Made by a program: the position numbers and the translations under genes. This document shows positions 3,698 through 19,869 of a stretch of 64,000 nucleotides of DNA, in pieces. The notes below the pieces were generated by a model. The model saw only the letters and a program-made list of their open reading frames with translations, ran no database searches and was not told the DNA's origin. Source of the stretch: Gilvimarinus polysaccharolyticus (GTDB lineage: Bacteria > Pseudomonadota > Gammaproteobacteria > Pseudomonadales > Cellvibrionaceae); assembly GCF_001187555.1 (NCBI RefSeq), contig NZ_LFIJ01000001.1, forward strand, positions 1,638,078 to 1,702,077, written 5' to 3'. How positions within the stretch are numbered: position 1 is the stretch's first letter; each line of letters begins with the position of its first letter.

Positions 3698-4105
3698 CTA
3701 TCGTGGTCGGCCAATCTCTCTCATTATGTCTCGCCAAGACAAGATGCCGATAGGCCTTTGAGCTTCATTAACAATTGGAATACACGATATTTTGTGTGAA
3801 TTGAAGATATCCACCGCCTCTCTTACCGTAGAATCTGCCGTTAACGATATAGGCTTGCGTGTCATTATTTGATGTGCTCGTTTGTTCAAAGAGGCTAAAT
3901 CTTTAGTAGTAGCGGCTATAGTGTCTATATTTGGGCTAATCGATTTGAGCAGATCTCGATCAGAAATAACACCAAACAAACGCTCATCCTCGACCACCAG
4001 CAGGTGATGAAAACCCGTCTGATCAAACAGCTCTTTAAGCCGACTAAGTCGATCGTCCATTTTTACAACAACTACGTTTTTGCTCATTATTTTACTAATT
4101 TTCAT
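3698..4105 (-). CDS. Twin CBS-domain protein
   Basis: A 135-residue stand-alone protein of two CBS motifs: residues about 4-60 (IMSKNVVVVKMDDRLS ... VVEDERLFGVISDRDLL) and 78-131 (IMTRKPISLTADSTVREA ... PIVNEAQRPIGILSWRDIM). Paired CBS domains form a Bateman module that binds adenine nucleotides and reports energy state. No effector domain is attached and the neighbours give no target. The start has AAGGGG about eight bases upstream. About 270 bases without any gene separate it from the NfeD operon. Confidence 0.9.
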   Translation of the reverse strand: MKISKIMSKNVVVVKMDDRLSRLKELFDQTGFHHLLVVEDERLFGVISDRDLLKSISPNIDTIAATTKDLASLNKRAHQIMTRKPISLTADSTVREAVDIFNSHKISCIPIVNEAQRPIGILSWRDIMREIGRPR

Positions 4106-7952: not shown

Positions 7953-8458
7953 CCTCGATACATGTTGAGCGGTAGTTGCTTCTATTTTGGGCGGGTAAAC
8001 GTTCAGCCGTTATTAGGCACCATAATTTTAACTGCCGCTATCATACACTCAGCTTATCTTAAAGCGCTAATGTAAAATGAACGATACTGGGCTATCGCCA
8101 AGTCCTACACGTCGGTACCCGCTGACTTATAAAGCGGCTACTAATATAGAACCTAGCCTTACCCCTTCACGCCCGATAAAACCGATTCGAAATCCAAGCC
8201 TAACATGCAGTGCAGCCAGAACTTAGGACACACATAGGCATGCTTATGCAGAACAACAAACTGAAGCTAAAAAGTATTCACTAAATATAAGATTAATAAA
8301 GGCAGGCTCTTAAAGATAAAGCTCGATAGCCTTTAGCTACCTCTGTTGCTCGGTTGACTGAAGGCGCATCCAGTTGCATATTTTAAAAATACGAACCCTC
8401 ATTCCGTGCATATCTAGTGTCACTACGGTGAAGCACTGCCTCACATCACAATTTATTC
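7953..8458. other. Intergenic region upstream of the pilus operon
   Basis: About 500 bases with stops in all frames and no recognisable RNA gene or repeat. Base composition is more AT-rich than the flanking genes. It probably holds regulatory sequence for the pilus operon plus leftovers of the decayed AraC-like gene. Confidence 0.4.
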
Positions 8459-8486
8459 TTGACAGGAATCATAGCTTTACTACACT
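8459..8486 (+). promoter_or_regulatory. Candidate sigma-70 promoter of the pilus operon
   Basis: A perfect -35 box TTGACA (8459-8464) is followed after 16 bases by TACACT (8481-8486). Transcription would begin near 8493, about 40 bases before the first pilus gene. The -10 box is only moderate, so this is a prediction from sequence. Confidence 0.5.
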
Positions 8487-8532
8487 CAAAGAAAATAAAA
8501 CGGATATAACGGACATGGATAAGGTGAAAAAA

Positions 8533-9048
8533 ATGAAATATTTTAATCGTCGTATTTTTATTAACGTTATCATTAAGGCCTCTGTTCTTTGTTTTACCCC
8601 GTTAGTATTTGCCTCCTCCGAGACTGGCAACTTTGACGTTACCCTTACAATCACATCATCCTGCAGCATTAACACCGCCACCGACGGCAATGTAGCTTTT
8701 GGTAATCAAGCATCCTCGGCAACCAATATCCAAGTCAGCACGGCCTCTATAGAGGTTAGTTGCACACAAGGTACACCCTACACCCTAGCATTAAATAACG
8801 GAGCCAATGCAGATGCGACTTCGCGGCGCATGATAGGCCAAACAGTCGCTACTGATTTTGTCCCTTACGAACTCTACTTAGATACTTACACAACATTGTG
8901 GGGGGATGGCGTTACTTTTGGTGCGGTTAAAAGTGGCTTGACGGGGAATGGTACAACACAGAGCCACGCTATATATGCTCAAGTCCCTAGTGCCAACGCT
9001 TCCGCACAAGATTACAAGGACACTGTGACTGCTACAATAACGTGGTGA
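8533..9048 (+). CDS. Spore coat U domain pilin (CsuA/B-like major subunit)
   Basis: A 171-residue secreted protein: signal peptide MKYFNRRIFINVIIKASVLC...VFA, then one spore coat U (SCPU) domain starting FDVTLTITSSCSIN and ending in the β-strand YKDTVTATITW. Paired cysteines (SCSI and VSCTQ) fit the disulfide of this fold. The family forms subunits of archaic chaperone-usher pili such as Acinetobacter Csu. I use the ATG at 8533 because AAGGTG lies six bases before it and a proper signal peptide follows; longer upstream frames have none. It is the first of four overlapping genes, so likely the main structural pilin. Confidence 0.88.
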   Translation: MKYFNRRIFINVIIKASVLCFTPLVFASSETGNFDVTLTITSSCSINTATDGNVAFGNQASSATNIQVSTASIEVSCTQGTPYTLALNNGANADATSRRMIGQTVATDFVPYELYLDTYTTLWGDGVTFGAVKSGLTGNGTTQSHAIYAQVPSANASAQDYKDTVTATITW

Positions 9049-9845
9049 GCTATAATTTCACGACAATAAAGTTTCTTTTTGAAACTGCAGTGAGGCACTT
9101 GCTACAGAGGGTAACAATACTATCCCTTATGCTGACCGGTTCTATCTGCGAAGCTAATATGCAAGTATCTCCTACCCAAGTATTTGTTGTTGCAGAGCAC
9201 AGCGCCTCAGGCATAACACTGCTTAACACCGGGGGAGAAGATTTATATGCACAAGTTCGTGTCTTTGAATGGCAGCAACAAAACGGCGAAGAGAAACTAC
9301 TGCCCACTCGTGCAATCGTGGCGAGCCCTCCGATGCTGCAACTCGCCCCTGGCGTTAACCAACTTGTACGAATCGTACGAAATGGGGCGCCTCCCACGGA
9401 TATCGAAAGCAGTTTTCGAATCATTATCGATGAGCTACCAGTAAATCTCGAGAGAGCCAAGCAAGCCACTAATAATACCCTCAGCACCCCAACCAATGGC
9501 TTACAATTTCGGTTACGTTATTCTATTCCAGTCTTTTTAGAACCGCCTAAACAAATTGCCATGCAGCCGATACTGAGCACTCAATTAATAAAAGAAAAGG
9601 ACGGATATTTTTTACGCATCAGTAATGGTGGTAATAGTCATGCTCATATTACTGATCTTACCTGGAAGCAAGACCAACAGCGAATCAGTATAGCCTCGGG
9701 GCTTGCAGGTTATGTCTTGCCGGGGCAGCAACGACAATGGCGACTAGATGATAATCTAAGTTTGATTGGTGGTGGTGAATTTACAGCAAGGATAAACGGT
9801 GAGCTGCTCGATCGCACTCTTATCTCTATCACCGAGACAAATTAG
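9042..9845 (+). CDS. Periplasmic pilus chaperone (CsuC/FimC-like)
   Basis: A 267-residue protein with an N-terminal signal (TILSLMLTGSICEA) and the two Ig-like domains of pilus chaperones. Family landmarks are MQVSPTQVFVVAEHSASGITLLNTGG (first strands), PPMLQLAPGVNQLVRIVR (donor strand and subunit-binding Arg region) and FRIIIDELPV. It delivers pilins to the usher by donor-strand complementation. It starts at a GTG overlapping the stop of the upstream pilin; GTGs at 9045 or 9090 are alternatives. Its 3' end overlaps the usher gene by 47 bases, so translation is probably coupled. Confidence 0.88.
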   Translation: MVSYNFTTIKFLFETAVRHLLQRVTILSLMLTGSICEANMQVSPTQVFVVAEHSASGITLLNTGGEDLYAQVRVFEWQQQNGEEKLLPTRAIVASPPMLQLAPGVNQLVRIVRNGAPPTDIESSFRIIIDELPVNLERAKQATNNTLSTPTNGLQFRLRYSIPVFLEPPKQIAMQPILSTQLIKEKDGYFLRISNGGNSHAHITDLTWKQDQQRISIASGLAGYVLPGQQRQWRLDDNLSLIGGGEFTARINGELLDRTLISITETN

Positions 9846-12210
9846 TCTAACTGGAGGGATTTTTCTGGCATTGCTCACAGCTGATGTATTCGGCGAACAA
9901 TATTTAACCGACCTTGAAACTCACCATTTCTCTCACGATGTTTCAGACTATTCTTCTCAAGCCGATATTACCCTGTACCTTGAGGTGATCCTCAATCAAA
10001 CACGCTACCCTAGGCTGCTACCTATCATCCAACGAAACCACGAATTATTTGCCAAAGTCGGCGACCTACAACAATTAGGGTTTATCGTTAACGATGCTGT
10101 AGGCACTGACAACATCGCATTAAGCTCACTAGCCGGGCTTAAAGTAAATTATTTAGTTAGCACACAACAACTAAAGCTCACCGCCCCACTATCGTTATTA
10201 TCGCTACCCGTCACCACACTCTGGGCAGACTCATCGCAGAACGCCCCTAAAGCAACAGCATCACCCGGCGTTTTATTTAATTATGATCTTTACTTCAATC
10301 AAGATAATAAACATCGTTTAGCCTCTGCCGCCACTGAGTTTCGTATCTTTGGCTTTGGCAACGGCGTCTTTAGCCATACATCAACCACTCACGCCGAGCA
10401 AGCCGAAGACAGCTCTTGGGAAAGTAAAACAGTCGCTCTTGATACTTTTGGCGAATGGTCGTTCCCTGAAAATGCAACACGCTTAGTTATCGGCGATTCT
10501 ATCAGTGGCGGACTTAACTGGTCCCGCTCGCTTCGGTTTGGTGGTATTCAGTTTAGTCGCAGCTTTAAATTACAGCCTTATCGCACCACCTCACCACTGG
10601 CATCTTTTATCGGCAAGGCAACCTTACCCTCATCGGTCGAACTTTACATTGACGGCATCCGTCGATATCAATCTAATGTACCTACCGGACCATTTGAATT
10701 AAATTCCGCGCCCAAAATTACCGGCACAGGTCAAGCGCAAGTCGTAACCACCGACATTCTCGGACGCTCTACCACAATCGATATCCCTTTTTACAGTACG
10801 CAACAATTACTGGCTAAAGGTTTATCAGACTGGACGGTTAATGTTGGCGTTGCACATAAAGATTACGGTGTTCGCTCTTTCTCGTATGGTGATGAGCCGA
10901 GCGCCACAGGTAGCATTCGTTACGGATTGAACAACCAATTGACAATGGAAGGTCATGCTGAAACCGGAGGCCGCCTCATCAATGGTGGTATTGGCGCTGT
11001 TTGGCAGCCTGGCTTGGCGGGGGTTATCAGCCTTGCTCACACACATAGTGACGAGAACGGGAAGACTGGGCACCAAACAGCATGGCGTTATAGCTGGAAT
11101 AACTCACGCTTTAACTTCTCTGCAGCTAGCCAGCGCACTTTTGGCAATTATCGTGATTTGGCCACCCACTATGGTCCTTTACCCTCCCGGCTTAGCGAGC
11201 AGGTCTTAGCCAGTCTATATACACCTCACTTAGGTAATATTGGTATCAGCGCAACGCGCTTTGACTATAGCGATAGCAATGAGCCGCTATCACGCTATGC
11301 TGGGGTGTACTGGAGTCATAACATCGGCGGCAGGGTTTCTCTCAACTTATCCTATAATCAAAACCTCAATGACAGTAAAGACTGTAACCTGCAATTCGGT
11401 ATTAATGTCAGTTTTAACCGTGATTACCAACTCAGCACTACGGCACAGCGCCACGCTCAAAAAAATAATTATCAAGCCAGTCTACAGCGAACTTTACCCA
11501 GCGATGGCGGCTCTGGCTGGCGCCTGCAAACCGGTAAAAATAAAAACGCGACCAACGCCTCAGCCCAAGGTAACTGGCTGGGAAATTATGGCCGCATTGA
11601 TGCCGGTATAGCGCATACTGAGAAACACAATACTGGATATGCCCAAGCGAGCGGCAGTCTTGTATTGATGAACAATCAAGGTTTTGCGTCACGCCGCATC
11701 AATGATGGCTTTGCAGTGGTCTCTACAGATGGCATATCAAACATGCCGGTCAAACTAGAAAATCGTCTAATAGGTTACACAAACGATAGCGGTAATCTAT
11801 TAGTGTCACGGCTTAATACTTGGCAGCGTAACAGGCTGTCAGTTGATCCGATGGATTTACCTGCGGACAATACAATTACTATCATTGATAAAATCGTAAC
11901 ACCAAGTGATCGTGCCGGGACATTAGTGCAATTTTCGATAGAAAAAGTTCGAGCCGCCACTGTAATTTTAACCGACATTAACGGTCAGCCACTGCCCATT
12001 GCTAGCCAAGTTCAACAAACCGACGGCTCCGACAAGCTCATATTTGTTGGTTTTGATGGCCAAGCCTATATTCAAAAACTACAAGATCATAATCAACTGC
12101 GTGTGATCACGCCTAACGGCATCTGTCACGTCGAGTTTGATATTCCCAAAAACGAAAAACCAAGCAGTTACATCATTGGCCCTTTCAAATGCTTAGAGGC
12201 TGCACAATGA
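9799..12210 (+). CDS. Outer-membrane usher (CsuD/FimD-like)
   Basis: An 803-residue protein with the usher layout: signal peptide ending near TADVFG, N-terminal domain (YLEVILNQTRYPRLLPII), β-barrel with the plug-region signature (SRSLRFGGIQFSRSFKLQPY ... SVELYIDGIRRYQSNVPTGPFEL, TTDILGRST), and small C-terminal β-domains ending in a Cys-containing tail (GICHVEFD ... GPFKCLEAAQ). It forms the pore that assembles and secretes the pilus. The GTG start at 9799 lies inside the chaperone gene; GGAGGG near 9852 could serve an internal start at TTG 9871, so the first residues are uncertain. Confidence 0.9.
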   Translation: MSCSIALLSLSPRQISLTGGIFLALLTADVFGEQYLTDLETHHFSHDVSDYSSQADITLYLEVILNQTRYPRLLPIIQRNHELFAKVGDLQQLGFIVNDAVGTDNIALSSLAGLKVNYLVSTQQLKLTAPLSLLSLPVTTLWADSSQNAPKATASPGVLFNYDLYFNQDNKHRLASAATEFRIFGFGNGVFSHTSTTHAEQAEDSSWESKTVALDTFGEWSFPENATRLVIGDSISGGLNWSRSLRFGGIQFSRSFKLQPYRTTSPLASFIGKATLPSSVELYIDGIRRYQSNVPTGPFELNSAPKITGTGQAQVVTTDILGRSTTIDIPFYSTQQLLAKGLSDWTVNVGVAHKDYGVRSFSYGDEPSATGSIRYGLNNQLTMEGHAETGGRLINGGIGAVWQPGLAGVISLAHTHSDENGKTGHQTAWRYSWNNSRFNFSAASQRTFGNYRDLATHYGPLPSRLSEQVLASLYTPHLGNIGISATRFDYSDSNEPLSRYAGVYWSHNIGGRVSLNLSYNQNLNDSKDCNLQFGINVSFNRDYQLSTTAQRHAQKNNYQASLQRTLPSDGGSGWRLQTGKNKNATNASAQGNWLGNYGRIDAGIAHTEKHNTGYAQASGSLVLMNNQGFASRRINDGFAVVSTDGISNMPVKLENRLIGYTNDSGNLLVSRLNTWQRNRLSVDPMDLPADNTITIIDKIVTPSDRAGTLVQFSIEKVRAATVILTDINGQPLPIASQVQQTDGSDKLIFVGFDGQAYIQKLQDHNQLRVITPNGICHVEFDIPKNEKPSSYIIGPFKCLEAAQ

Positions 12211-13211
12211 AGCCATCAAAAAGCATCCTCTTAGGTCTAATTTTTAGCGGGTTATTGAGTTTAGCAAACAGCACATTAGCTACGACTAATTGTAACGCCA
12301 GTGCCAGTGATCTGGTTTTTGGCAACATCAGTATGGGCGCGACACAAAATAATACAGCAACGGTCAACATCGAGTGCAATACCTTTGGCCTGTCTTTACT
12401 GGCGACCGCTCGAGTACGGATGTGCCTAAATATTGATGCCGGTGTAGCCACTAACAGCACCGTAAACGCACGAACAATGAGCACCGCATCATTAGAGCAA
12501 GTACAGTTTCAAATTTATCGCGATGCAGGACGCTATCAAACTTGGAGCAATACTGTAGCAAGCGATGTCGATATTGACCTACAGTATTCCGTTCCTGTGC
12601 TAGGTGGTTCAGGTACAACTTCCGCCATCTTATATGGGCAAATACCTGCACAACTTGCCTTGGCAACAGGTAATCATCAGAACTCTTTCGTTGGTGCACA
12701 TACTCGCCTAGATTACCGTTATGCAGAACGCTTATTAGGCACACCCAGCTGGCCCACCAGCTGTACCTCTGGCGGAAATGGAGGTGGCAGCATTACCTTT
12801 CCCTTTAACGCTAATGCTACTGTTCCTGCTAGCTGTGTAATCGATGTTGTGAATAATCTTAATTTTGGCTCGACACCAGGATTAATCAGCAGCAACCAAG
12901 ATCAAACCACCAATTTCAGCTTTACTTGTACGAAAACGACACCGTGGAAAGTATCGCTTGATGACGGCCTGCATGCTGTGGGCGCAACACGCCACATGCG
13001 CCTTGGAACAACAGAAAACTATGTCGAATACGAACTCTACCGTGACAGCGGCCGGACATTACGCTGGGGCAACACACCGGATGTCGACACGGTTAACAAT
13101 GCCGGCACCGGAAGCAGCCAAAACCTGACCATTTATGGCCGCGTTCCCGCCCCGCAATCGCTCCCTAGTGGTAGCTATAGTGATACCGTGACCGTCACCA
13201 TCACCTATTGA
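12207..13211 (+). CDS. Two-domain spore coat U pilus tip subunit (CsuE-like)
   Basis: A 334-residue secreted protein with a signal peptide (SILLGLIFSGLLSLANSTLA) and two tandem SCPU domains: one from about residue 29 (CNASASDLVFGNISMG) and a second from about 205 (SCVIDVVNNLNFGSTPG) ending with SYSDTVTVTITY. Its end resembles the single-domain pilin at 8533. A two-domain last gene in an archaic pilus operon is the expected tip adhesin, like CsuE. The ATG at 12207 overlaps the usher stop (ATGA) and has AGAGG upstream. Confidence 0.85.
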   Translation: MKPSKSILLGLIFSGLLSLANSTLATTNCNASASDLVFGNISMGATQNNTATVNIECNTFGLSLLATARVRMCLNIDAGVATNSTVNARTMSTASLEQVQFQIYRDAGRYQTWSNTVASDVDIDLQYSVPVLGGSGTTSAILYGQIPAQLALATGNHQNSFVGAHTRLDYRYAERLLGTPSWPTSCTSGGNGGGSITFPFNANATVPASCVIDVVNNLNFGSTPGLISSNQDQTTNFSFTCTKTTPWKVSLDDGLHAVGATRHMRLGTTENYVEYELYRDSGRTLRWGNTPDVDTVNNAGTGSSQNLTIYGRVPAPQSLPSGSYSDTVTVTITY

Positions 13212-13439: not shown

Positions 13440-13742
13440 CTGTAATCCCTCCAATAATCCCCCCATTACTAGCGGCCATATAGACGACGGAAAAGTAGCG
13501 CATTACCAAGTGACTATGAAAATAGGCTTTCGAATTGAGAACAGCTAAGGATCTTTAGCGCCTGCTGGGCTGGGCCGGCGGCCAGTCTTGCATGTTATCG
13601 TCGATGAAAAACTCATAGGAACGCTATGATTATGGGAGACTAAGCTAAGCCATATATTAAAGATTTTATTCTGTCGCAGATTCAACACCTTCACGCCCAA
13701 GAATGCTTAATGCGCCATAAGTTTGATCTGACCCCATTTATT
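13440..13742 (+). repeat. Dispersed ~300-bp repeat, copy 1
   Basis: This segment is nearly identical, and in the same orientation, to 17399-17685. It begins CTGTAATCCC and ends GATCTGACCCCATTTATT. Copy 1 carries a 12-base insertion near its start relative to copy 2; other differences are a handful of substitutions and single-base indels. The end GGGGTCAGATC (minus strand) resembles the ends of elements associated with Y1/REP transposases, but no transposase frame is present. It abuts the CBM2 gene fragment starting at 13753. Confidence 0.85.
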
Positions 13743-15261: not shown

Positions 15262-16037
15262 AATACTACTAGCTCCCAATGTAATTATTTTTTTCCTGCG
15301 AACACTTTCGGCAATAGCACACATTCTGTCAAGCCCAAAAAATTCATAGTACTTTGGGCTCAAGTATTGCTCTTCCCACGCAACAACCGAGCTACATACC
15401 AGCCGCTTATTGGCTATGCTAATGGTAAGGGCCTGGCTCGAATAGCGCTTCGAACGAATCAGCTACACTAGATGGTCAGCTATTCCAAATATCTACCCCA
15501 TAAACGGCTACCAAACACGTCCAGCGCCAATATTGTTTATACGACCTACGCCGAACTTTATAAGTATGGCAGAGGTTACCAGCATAGATGGGGCCATGAA
15601 AAACCTGCTTAACCATCTGTCAAAGCAGGATGTAACCGGCAATTATATAGACACAACATGGATGATTTACGCGATGCAATGAAGCCTATTAAAGCCAAAA
15701 TAATGCTTTTGAGCAGCGCCCAACGCTTCACCTACACCAGAGAAGCATGCCCTGCCCCACTGATGTGCTCCGCTCACCACCTAGGGTACTTGAGCCCAAG
15801 CAGCCCATACATCATCTGGAGCGCTGCTCTCACCGCGATACTGGCAGCACCGAAAAAAGGCAGACGGTGCCAAGCAGCCCCAAACACCGTGGTGCAAAGT
15901 GATTTGATGATCTATGCTTGAAATTCGATTGAAGTTAACTTATATATTAACTATAGTGTAGGCACCGTGACTGACGACGATATCCCAAACGATAGCTACT
16001 CTGGCAGCAAATACAGCGGCTGGCCGATGGGCACCGG
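15262..16037. other. Decayed accessory DNA without an intact gene
   Basis: Only short interrupted frames are present. On the plus strand, 15471-15600 reads MVSYSKYLPHKRLP ... YAELYKYGRGYQHRWGHE before a stop, and another frame gives TSIDGAMKNLLNHLSKQD. On the minus strand, 15780-15910 reads AAWHRLPFFGAASIAVRAAL before a stop. They look protein-like but cannot be named. Directly before 16038 the toxin frame continues upstream as QRLADGHR back to a TAG near 15993, hinting that the toxin gene has lost its original start. Confidence 0.5.
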
Positions 16038-16283
16038 ATGTCAAAAGAGAGCTTCCCGCCAGAGGGTGATTTACCTAAATCTGTGGGAGGGCAAAGCGCG
16101 GGAAAGTTTAACGCTCTAAAGCGAATACCTTTACGGGGTTATTGCTGGCGGTCGAACACCCAAGCAAACACATATTTTATCAGCCACTACGTTTATAAAG
16201 ACTACCAAAAACTCAAAAAGAAAGACTCGGACATAGTGGCCCACAACTGGAAAAGAATAGAGGAAAATGGCGATGAGCGCTAA
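16038..16283 (+). CDS. Putative toxin of a toxin-antitoxin-chaperone module (RelE/HigB-like)
   Basis: An 81-residue basic protein: PPEGDLPKSVGG, FNALKRIPLRGYCWRS, TYFISHYVYKDYQKLKKKD, NWKRIEENG. The sequence and its place directly before a helix-turn-helix antitoxin resemble RelE-fold mRNA interferases of the HigB type, though I cannot identify the subfamily with certainty. It overlaps the antitoxin start by 11 bases. The protein is short and the ATG lacks a good ribosome site; toxin-like codons continue about 14 residues upstream to a TAG, so the N-terminus may be truncated and the toxin weakened or dead. Confidence 0.6.
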   Translation: MSKESFPPEGDLPKSVGGQSAGKFNALKRIPLRGYCWRSNTQANTYFISHYVYKDYQKLKKKDSDIVAHNWKRIEENGDER

Positions 16284-16692
16284 AGAGCTGTTTTATCCAC
16301 CAAACAAACAATTCTCAAAAGCAGAAGACAAAGCCTACGCACGAGAAGAGCTGATTTATAACGTCACAGAAGACCTATTAGTGATATTGGAAGACCACGC
16401 CATTAGCAAAGCCGAACTGGCAAAAAAACTGGGTAAGTCCAAGTCGTTTGTAACGCAGCTACTCAGCGGCTCACGCAATATGACGCTTGGCACCCTGTCT
16501 GATATTTGCTTTGCACTGGGCTTTGCGCCCAAAGTATTGCTGCCGATCGCAGAGGCCCCTTTGGCAGAAGCACGCAATTTTGAGTGGAAAGCCGTGACAC
16601 CAAAGGCCAAAGCCACAGCCCCTTCTCGGACAAAGCTTACCGAGAGAAAAATTATCGGCTGTAGTCATCTACCTCAATGGCACGCGGCATGA
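16273..16692 (+). CDS. XRE/HigA-like antitoxin with C-terminal extension
   Basis: A 139-residue protein. Residues about 27-95 are a Cro/C1-type helix-turn-helix: DLLVILEDHAISKAELAKKL, GKSKSFVTQLLSGSRNMTLG, TLSDICFALGF. After the DNA-binding domain comes a ~45-residue tail (NFEWKAVTPKAKATAPSRTK, CSHLPQWHAA) that is basic and ends in aromatic residues. In TAC systems such a tail is the chaperone-addiction region that makes the antitoxin depend on the SecB-like partner; here that role is inferred. I use the ATG at 16273, eight bases after AGGA, rather than 16267. Such antitoxins usually repress their own operon. Confidence 0.82.
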   Translation: MSAKELFYPPNKQFSKAEDKAYAREELIYNVTEDLLVILEDHAISKAELAKKLGKSKSFVTQLLSGSRNMTLGTLSDICFALGFAPKVLLPIAEAPLAEARNFEWKAVTPKAKATAPSRTKLTERKIIGCSHLPQWHAA

Positions 16693-17174
16693 ACGACCTA
16701 TTAATATCAGCACAAGATGCTTTAAAGATTCAGTCAATCGACTTGCGTGGAACGCAAGTCTCGTTGCGAGAGGACTTTGAGCCGGCGACTTTGGGTGCTC
16801 ATGATTACGTCACCCAAGAGTTTCATGGCGTGTCACAAGTCAAAGAAGCCGTTTTTACGAATGACAACAGCGACACGGTGCATGAGTATCGCTTTAACCA
16901 TACCAGTGGTATTCGCGCCATTGCGCAAGGCGACCAAGAAGCCGCTATGGACGACGACTATCAACCTTTTGTGGTTATTGTCGTCACCTTTGAAGCCAAA
17001 TATATCGCCACCCAAGAACTAAGCGAAGACGAAGTGGCGGCTTTTTCAGAGAATAACGTGAGTTTTCATGTGCGCCCCTATTGGCGCGAGTACGTGCAAT
17101 CTACTTGCGCCAGAATCGGCTTAAATCCCCTGTTAGAAATTCCGATACATCGTAGTGATCAACGTGGGGGTTAA
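16689..17174 (+). CDS. SecB-like chaperone of a toxin-antitoxin-chaperone module
   Basis: A 161-residue protein whose start overlaps the antitoxin stop (ATGA). Its N-terminal part starts from alternating strands (IQSIDLRGTQVSLREDF), then FVVIVVTFEAKYIATQELS, and the C-terminal part NNVSFHVRPYWREYVQSTCA, IGLNPLLEIPIH follows the SecB signature (a conserved PY/F-R-E, helix, then a Leu/Pro-rich strand). Size is close to SecB (~155 residues). As the third gene after a toxin and a tailed HTH antitoxin, it fits the dedicated chaperone of TAC modules such as Mycobacterium Rv1955-1957, which folds or protects the antitoxin. An ATG at 16677 is an alternative start. Confidence 0.78.
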   Translation: MNDLLISAQDALKIQSIDLRGTQVSLREDFEPATLGAHDYVTQEFHGVSQVKEAVFTNDNSDTVHEYRFNHTSGIRAIAQGDQEAAMDDDYQPFVVIVVTFEAKYIATQELSEDEVAAFSENNVSFHVRPYWREYVQSTCARIGLNPLLEIPIHRSDQRGG

Positions 17175-17399: not shown

Positions 17400-17685
17400 T
17401 GTAATCCCCCCATTACTAGCGGCCATATAAACGACGGAAAAGTAGCGCATTACCAAGTGACTATGAAAATAGGCTTTCGAATTGAGAACAGCTAAGGATC
17501 TTTAGCGCCTACTGGGCTGGGCCGGCGGCCAGTCTTGCATGTTATCGTCGATGAAAAAACTCATAAGAGCGCTATGATTATGGGAGACTAAGCCATAAAT
17601 TAAAGATTTTATTCTGTCGCAGATTCAACACCTCCACACCCAAGAATGCTTAATGCGCCATAAGTTTGATCTGACCCCATTTATT
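17399..17685 (+). repeat. Dispersed ~300-bp repeat, copy 2
   Basis: Direct-orientation copy of 13440-13742, from CTGTAATCC to CCCCATTTATT. It joins the truncated dodecin gene on its left side. On the minus strand both copies include a short frame related to FFIDDNMQDWPPAQPSRR followed by a stop. This could be the tail of a lost gene carried by the element, or chance. Confidence 0.85.
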
Positions 17686-19041: not shown

Positions 19042-19227
19042 ATCGGCCTAGCAGGATGCATGGGGCACGTCCTTGTGCCCCACCCTGCGGGCAGCATCCG
19101 CTGTGCAAAATGGCTGTCCTGCCATTTTTAGGTCGCTCCTGCGCTCCATGCGCCCGCGACATTCGTGCATCCATGCACATCAACCGGAGCTAAGCCTCGC
19201 TCTCGCTGAGCTTTCAGCGAGAGCGAG
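19042..19227 (-). repeat. Hairpin-rich repeat, copy B, with perfect 14-bp hairpin
   Basis: It contains GCCTAGCAGGATGCATGG at the left and GTGCATCCATGCACATCAAC at the right, a core AAAATGGCTGTCCTGCCATTTT (stem-loop), then a perfect hairpin at 19196-19227 (CTCGCTCTCGCTGA / TCAGCGAGAGCGAG, loop GCTT). The core and flanks recur almost unchanged in copy C at 19557-19686. It lies just downstream of the intact tRNA-Ala and its terminator. Confidence 0.75.
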
Positions 19228-19233
19228 ACAAAC

Positions 19234-19271
19234 AAAAAACCCCCGTACTCTCGCGAGTACGGGGGTTTTTT
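19234..19271 (-). terminator. Terminator of tRNA-Ala
   Basis: A strong stem CCCCCGTACTC / GAGTACGGGGG with loop TCGC, flanked by six A on one side and six T on the other, so it can work in both directions. It starts eight bases downstream of the tRNA 3' end on the minus strand. Confidence 0.85.
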
Positions 19272-19278
19272 GTTTGTT

Positions 19279-19354
19279 TGGTGGAGCCTAGCGGGATCGA
19301 ACCGCTGACCTCAACACTGCCAGTGTTGCGCTCTCCCAGCTGAGCTAAGGCCCC
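19279..19354 (-). tRNA. tRNA-Ala (anticodon GGC)
   Basis: A 76-nt cloverleaf with encoded CCA. The acceptor stem GGGGCCT pairs with AGGCTCC (one G-T pair), the D-arm is GCTC..GAGC, the anticodon arm CAACA-CTGGCAG-TGTTG carries anticodon GGC (reads GCC/GCU, Ala), and the T-arm is AGCGG-TTCGATC-CCGCT. A strong promoter lies upstream and a terminator directly downstream, so it is a single-gene unit. Confidence 0.96.
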
Positions 19355-19367
19355 GAAAGAGGTGCGC

Positions 19368-19396
19368 ATAATAGGCGTGAGACGAAAAACTGTCAA
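19368..19396 (-). promoter_or_regulatory. Sigma-70 promoter of tRNA-Ala
   Basis: On the minus strand TTGACA (19396-19391), 17 bases, then TATTAT (19373-19368), about 13 bases before the tRNA 5' end. The GC-containing discriminator (GCGCACC) is typical of stable-RNA promoters. The same promoter, with a -10 of TATTAA, stands before the broken tRNA copy at 19741 (boxes 19756-19761 and 19779-19784). Confidence 0.85.
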
Positions 19397-19556
19397 GGCC
19401 TCAACCCAATAAATTTATGGGTTTTTGCGCCTATGGCTATCACTCAATCAATCTGTTTGATTTTCCAGCGCCTGACATACGCACTGTCTATGCTCTGTGG
19501 CTAATTTAAAGCACTAGCTCGGACTTCGATAAAAGTTAGGCACTGATAGAACCGTC

Positions 19557-19741
19557 GCCTAGCGGGATGCACTCGGGCCATCCATGGCCCTACGGGCGGC
19601 ATTCGCCGTGCAAAATGGCTATCCTGCCATTTTTAGGTCGCTCCTGCGCTCCATGCGCCCGCGACATTCGTGCATCCATGCACATCAACCGCTGATATCA
19701 ACTCTGCCAGAGTTGCGTTCTCCCAGCTGAGCTAAGGCCCC
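19557..19741 (-). pseudogene. Second tRNA-Ala(GGC) copy split in the T-arm by repeat copy C
   Basis: The 5' part, 19741-19687, reproduces tRNA-Ala: GGGGCCTTAGCTCAGCTGGG, anticodon arm CAACT-CTGGCAG-AGTTG, and AGCGGTT of the T-arm. Then about 118 bases of the repeat seen at 19042-19227 intervene, and the T-arm/acceptor resumes as ATCCCGCTAGGC at 19568-19557, after which similarity is lost. A functional tRNA cannot form. A duplicated promoter is still present upstream. Confidence 0.78.
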
Positions 19742-19869
19742 GAAAGAGGTGCGTTTTAATAGGCGTGAGAGGAAAAACTGTCAAGGCCTTCGATCAAGAA
19801 ATTCACCCCTTTTTGCCCCGACGATTACCTCTTACTCAATCTGTTTAATTTTCCCACACCTAAAGCTGC

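Follow-up and report, generated by a model that had tools for sequence, protein, structure and literature searches.

A toxin–antitoxin–chaperone remnant of a HigBA-type lineage with a split toxin gene in Gilvimarinus polysaccharolyticus

The three-gene module and its control site

The window, i.e., the whole analyzed stretch of 64,000 nucleotides from contig NZ_LFIJ01000001.1 of Gilvimarinus polysaccharolyticus, carries the remains of a toxin–antitoxin–chaperone (TAC) module on its plus strand. The genes, their upstream control site, and the flanking repeats are arranged as follows.

13455..13742: left one of two direct repeats of ~285 bp, 96% identical to the right one
15929–15957: weak promoter-like site (9 of 12 positions), overlapping the operator
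15934..15951: copy, with one mismatch, of the conserved palindromic operator GTTWAYATATATRTWAAC, to which the HTH antitoxin presumably binds, identified as a motif in relatives
15967–17174, plus strand: split toxin gene, HTH antitoxin gene, and SecB-like gene, in that order
15967..16014, plus strand: N-terminal toxin remnant starting at GTG, in another frame than the C-terminal one, identified by comparison of toxin N termini
16005..16283, plus strand: C-terminal toxin remnant, found with the toxin profile in a frame-by-frame search; its 81-residue ORF from ATG 16038 is the toxin of the first-pass annotation
16273..16692, plus strand: HTH antitoxin (PF13443/PF01381), 139 residues, with a two-Trp tail ending in Ala-Ala
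16689..17174, plus strand: SecB-like chaperone, 161 residues, with a predicted SecB fold
17402..17685: right copy of the direct repeat of ~285 bp, 96% identical to the left copy

The toxin remnant ORF overlaps the antitoxin gene by 11 bases, and the antitoxin gene overlaps the SecB-like gene by 4 bases. Relatives keep the same start positions as 16273 and 16689. The first-pass annotation had read the three overlapping genes as one unit, and both overlaps are confirmed.

The operator palindrome was written down from 25 upstream stretches that belong to the set later used for counting it. This set comprises 46 nonidentical toxin loci including the window, after L043 was dropped for too little upstream DNA. 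Allowing up to two mismatches, the palindrome is present in 42 of them (32 exact copies, 8 with one mismatch, and 2 with two) and missing from L009, L063, L085, and L090. All 42 sites beat every one of 200 shuffled controls of their own locus, with shuffles that keep base composition only. In the relatives, the palindrome lies 18 to 46 nt upstream of the called toxin start; the copy in the window deviates at one position. The promoter-like site that overlaps it is of a kind of which three were found and 2.4 are expected by chance. Throughout the 3.74-Mb genome, only the window matches the slightly wider pattern GTTWAYWTATATRTWAAC without mismatch. This pattern gives nine matches, two of which are the window site counted once per strand, and the reversed-pattern control gives four. 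An orphan antitoxin with a regulon was considered and rejected, as all other sites in the genome have two mismatches. Since HigA and HigBA complexes bind palindromes in their own promoter, as stated in PMC11980606, autoregulation by the antitoxin at the palindrome is the natural reading by analogy.

Toxin, antitoxin, and chaperone

Over 15967 to 16283, the toxin reading frame is split. The window matches a profile built from intact toxins at positions 43 to 137 of 137 (E = 1.5e-43), and the match runs into a stop at its 5' end; the 81-residue ORF only starts at the equivalent of toxin residue 58. The 16-residue piece from GTG 15967 is too short to be detected by the whole-length profile frame by frame, and it outscores 1000 of 1000 shuffles against toxin N termini, with L020 as its best match. 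This GTG sits 33 nt past the start of the operator, a spacing within the range of the relatives, which supports 15967 as the original toxin start. Both frames overlap at the junction, and according to the alignment, no frame of the DNA still encodes about residues 15 to 46. In the structure model, the missing part corresponds to a strand (15–18), a helix (22–30), and part of a further helix (35–53). Lacking the N-terminal strands and both N-terminal helices, the 81-residue remnant is most likely inert. At E values up to 1, the window is the sole match of the intact-toxin profile in the genome, which thus yielded no second toxin copy; intact copies are present in other species. None of 29 conserved positions deviates in the toxin remnant and none of 35 in the antitoxin (27 loci picked from 33). 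Because the conserved positions of both are undamaged, the break looks recent, judging from the sequence. A locus at the end of a metagenome contig (L035:1–330) matches the toxin only from position 78 and is preceded by unrelated DNA; it may be a second toxin-broken locus, or may be an assembly artifact, which is also possible at a contig end.

For the intact toxin of the relative L015, a RelE/ParE (BECR), HigB-like fold is predicted from its structure model, with weak Foldseek matches (best E 0.02). The first-pass annotation had proposed a comparison with the RelE, ParE, and HigB families, and this gave no curated profile match: the window toxin has none in Pfam or NCBIfam, and no RelE/ParE/HigB family is found among the Pfam matches of 32 toxin members. 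Three members have no match in NCBIfam and chance-level matches only in PADLOC, as do two members in PHROGs. PDB sequence searches with the L003 toxin and the toxin profile gave only chance matches, and tblastn searches of plasmids gave nothing, whether the query was the toxin piece of the window or the toxin of L003. Hence, the toxin is placed in the HigB/RelE superfamily by predicted fold, not by a curated sequence profile.

The HTH part of the antitoxin is followed by a tail of about 56 residues, starting at about 16522, where the first-pass annotation had seen one of ~45. The best PADLOC match of the antitoxin, PDC-M64B (E = 7.9e-10), covers the HTH part only. The tail was compared among 33 nonidentical antitoxins encoded beside a SecB-type chaperone, of which 31 tails could be parsed and two could not. 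All 31 contain Trp, and 26 end in [AVS]A. At least two Trp residues occur within the last 50 residues in 27 of the 33 antitoxins, with a first-to-last spacing of 24 to 35, and the last one is mostly the fourth to seventh residue counted from the C-terminal end. Two MqsA tails beside the same chaperone type (L080 and L088) resemble these tails; the resemblance is weaker for the remaining MqsA and HicB tails. According to PMC6377645, the tail of Mycobacterium tuberculosis HigA1 binds its chaperone via W108, and a second similar motif lies at W137. In PMC11618068, the TAC antitoxin CmdA is described to end in LAA, a ClpXP signal, and antitoxins of other TACs likewise. The extra C-terminal tail of the window antitoxin appears ChAD-like in sequence. 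The first-pass annotation had called it unlike the mycobacterial one, yet two Trp residues about 28 residues apart are a common feature.

The predicted monomer of the third protein consists of a four-stranded sheet and two C-terminal helices, as in SecB and Rv1957. A profile links it to Rv1957 at E = 7.8e-5, and the profile of its family matches canonical SecB at p = 6.6e-4 (probability 27%), compared with 0.36 for reversed SecB. It belongs to none of the Pfam families (0 matches), the cut-off of the SecB family PF02556 being missed, and four of 24 members of the chaperone alignment have SecB matches in Pfam, the best at E 0.06. It is therefore SecB-like by predicted fold and not PF02556 by the Pfam cut-off. 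Herein, the SecB-like third gene of the first-pass annotation holds by fold, and the profile comparison that it had proposed gave no match above the family cut-off. Both the toxin and the SecB assignment draw on predicted folds and one modest profile match. Of the three matches (E ≤ 0.001) of the SecB-like model in a Foldseek search of BFVD, one carries the name SecB, but none could be traced to the family of the phage third protein (A4) described below. Since PF02556 matches the genome only once, at the canonical secB located on contig 2, export is probably not the task of the SecB-like gene in the window. Its product deviates at two of 26 conserved positions, W133R and Y158H, and by sequence may be starting to decay; with rank 8 of 27 members, it is no outlier in this respect.

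By analogy with published TACs, the parts would act together as follows. The antitoxin would bind the palindrome and repress the operon, and the SecB-like protein would bind the antitoxin tail at its Trp sites, which would keep the antitoxin soluble and shielded from proteolysis. In intact relatives, loss of the chaperone, e.g., by capture by a phage protein, would free the toxin, which would cut mRNA.

Distribution and relatives with another third gene

The toxin query found 21 genome loci, including L015 and L033 from which the query was derived. In all 21, antitoxin and SecB-like genes lie downstream, and 20 have a full toxin ORF. The trio thus occurs together in other genomes, as the first-pass annotation had expected. 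With the toxin in four of 369 genomes of the class, its own included, the module is rare; all three genes are present in all four. The chaperone is found in 11 of 293 genomes of the order, its own included, at 13 places. Five of these have the window-type toxin–antitoxin (window included), and the other eight, read by eye, appear to carry components of MqsRA or HicAB modules. The chaperone query also picked up 19 viral loci, of which nine have the window-type toxin–antitoxin, one has the antitoxin only, and nine have neither. Plasmid relatives of the chaperone from Vibrio and Shewanella, 26 to 29% identical, adjoin annotated MqsA antitoxins. Pairwise identities of the three proteins correlate across 33 loci with r of 0.75 to 0.87 (0 of 999 permutations), from 0.87 for toxin and antitoxin to 0.75 for toxin and chaperone, as expected if they are inherited together. 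One contig (G218, with L003 and L014) carries two different TACs ~6 kb apart, one of the MqsRA type and one of the window lineage.

Compared with known systems, the module resembles M. tuberculosis HigB1–HigA1–SecBTA (Rv1955–Rv1957) in design. However, HigB1 is only 6% identical to the lineage toxin in the structural alignment, the PDB search with the toxin profile revealed no sequence link between them, the chaperones are linked only at E = 7.8e-5, and the window toxin is broken. The SecBTA chaperones of MqsRA and HicAB modules, for which PMC5105189 names V. cholerae RC385 and M. methanica MC09, have a counterpart in those relatives of the window chaperone, on plasmids and in genomes, that lie behind MqsA or HicB. 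These two modules are likened to them by antitoxin type, not by sequence, and differ from the window in that its toxin–antitoxin is HigBA-like. E. coli HigBAC and CmdTAC share the three-part design with a SecB-like chaperone. According to PMC11980606 and PMC11618068, a phage structural protein disturbs the antitoxin–chaperone pair in both. CmdT differs in being an ADP-ribosyltransferase, and both systems are anti-phage, whereas the window lineage is known here from sequence and predicted folds. The separate TAC lineage suggested by the first-pass annotation therefore stands for the toxin, the antitoxin, and the operator, but not for the chaperone, which has relatives behind MqsRA and HicAB. 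The toxin lineage is uncatalogued, and the module adds it to the known TAC modules. Several of these are now known as phage-sensing defense systems. The new lineage brings a DNA signature, the operator, with which it can be searched.

Among 22 viral loci found with the toxin query, a redundant set, 18 have a different third gene. In phage HK639, the trio (L058:4007–5209) lies between a CI-like repressor gene and a putative pL promoter; in mEp237 (L059:3998–5239), it occupies the corresponding place between the HTH regulator genes and kil. This place we take to correspond to that of rex in lambda. Both trios are preceded by the window-type operator, with one exact site each and none in 200 dinucleotide-preserving shuffles, and are annotated as hypothetical proteins flanking an HTH regulator. 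For the HK639 toxin, the annotation uses an internal start codon, and the conserved one is the TTG at 4007. Neither the window chaperone family nor canonical SecB gives a profile–profile signal above reversed controls with the phage third protein (A4), and a PDB search with it gave chance matches. It is homologous to the "HicC chaperone" of phage mEp506 at 42 bits, the best of 2000 shuffles reaching 7.9. According to the annotation of the depositor (PV340542), mEp506 HicABC (L136:2227–3357) has HicC between cI and an antitermination gene. This TAC-like trio, which has cI on one side and the left operon on the other, differs from the window in its HicAB toxin–antitoxin, and its HicC belongs to the same family as the third proteins of HK639 and mEp237. 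HicC matches neither SecB in Pfam nor the window chaperone profile, and its 6.3-kb stretch contains no window-type operator. The HicC-type phage family thus accompanies two unrelated toxin–antitoxin types, one in mEp506 and one in HK639 and mEp237. Among the matches in open-licence full texts, no paper on the HK639, mEp237, or mEp506 HicABC trios was found, and the HK639 trio had no megablast match in the E. coli genome collection.

Antitoxin tails paired with the HK639-type third gene contain Trp in six of 14 and end in [AVS]A in two of 14, which are near-identical. A possible reading, which we hold at slightly below even chance, is that a HigBA-like toxin–antitoxin with one operator was joined to two unrelated chaperone families, the SecB type in gamma-proteobacteria and the HicC type in lambdoid phages, with the tail refitted each time. 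If so, tails and chaperones would be exchangeable cassettes, the phage members at the lambda rex place would be prophage-borne exclusion systems, and the window would illustrate the toxin-first decay of such a module. The most interesting lead is that the third gene changes from one branch to the other. Because one toxin–antitoxin is naturally paired with either type of third gene, the origin of the antitoxin's chaperone addiction becomes testable by comparison of tails.

State of the module and its surroundings

By its genes and predicted folds, the module belongs to the TAC lineage. As in its relatives, a type II toxin gene takes first place in the operon. We consider it highly probable that the window holds a chromosomal TAC of a HigBA-type lineage whose toxin gene was broken by an internal out-of-frame deletion of ~30 to 37 codons. 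Because the toxin is broken, the locus is filed as a TAC remnant of antitoxin and chaperone, neither complete nor working. The TAC module of the first-pass annotation is hence right for the lineage and not for this genome, and its suggestion that perhaps the antitoxin–chaperone half alone still works is backed by the broken toxin. Antitoxin, SecB-like chaperone, and control site look intact, and what remains would be a self-repressing antitoxin–chaperone pair that is probably still expressed. This pair is most likely a recent relic, and the window an example of toxin-first decay with antitoxin and chaperone left over.

It is rather unlikely that selection has instead maintained the pair since the toxin was lost, be it for repression or for protection from incoming modules of the same family by anti-addiction or cross-neutralization. 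The intact operator, antitoxin, and chaperone and the untouched conserved positions of the antitoxin would fit such a role, and toxin-less loci are in print as "TAC or AC" in PMC4257090. However, with 0 of 29 positions changed, the toxin remnant is just as well preserved, so the break looks too recent to reveal selection, and no regulon is visible because the genome has no other exact operator. L035 may be a parallel case, but its position at a contig end leaves room for an assembly artifact.

The chance that the TAC is complete, with the 81-residue piece acting as a shortened toxin or with frameshifting yielding the full product, appears very small. The remnant is an undamaged ORF that retains conserved C-terminal residues, and a shift is conceivable, since both frames overlap at the junction; yet frameshifting cannot provide the about 30 residues that are absent in every frame, and the genome has no further toxin copy. 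Hardly credible is an unrelated operon of a DNA-binding regulator and two hypothetical proteins that resembles a TAC by chance, for which the missing named Pfam or NCBIfam toxin or SecB match of the window proteins might speak. It is already contradicted by the profile link between the chaperone and Rv1957 and by the toxin and chaperone fold matches, two independent ones that include TAC parts; the conserved three-gene order further argues against it, as does the finding that relatives of this chaperone are linked to MqsRA and HicAB modules.

The two direct repeats are 3.9 kb apart and are the only long copies in the genome. Besides the TAC remnant, they enclose a minus-strand gene of 453 residues (BNR repeat, E = 0.009, below the cut-off). 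Recombination between the repeats could remove this segment together with the TAC remnant. A chaperone–usher cluster (SCPU, PapD-like chaperone, usher, SCPU; 8374–13211) directly precedes the left repeat. A tRNA-Ala (GGC) gene at 19279–19354 lies within imperfect tandem repeats (19083–19861), and the same region contains a partial tRNA-like copy at 19687–19753.
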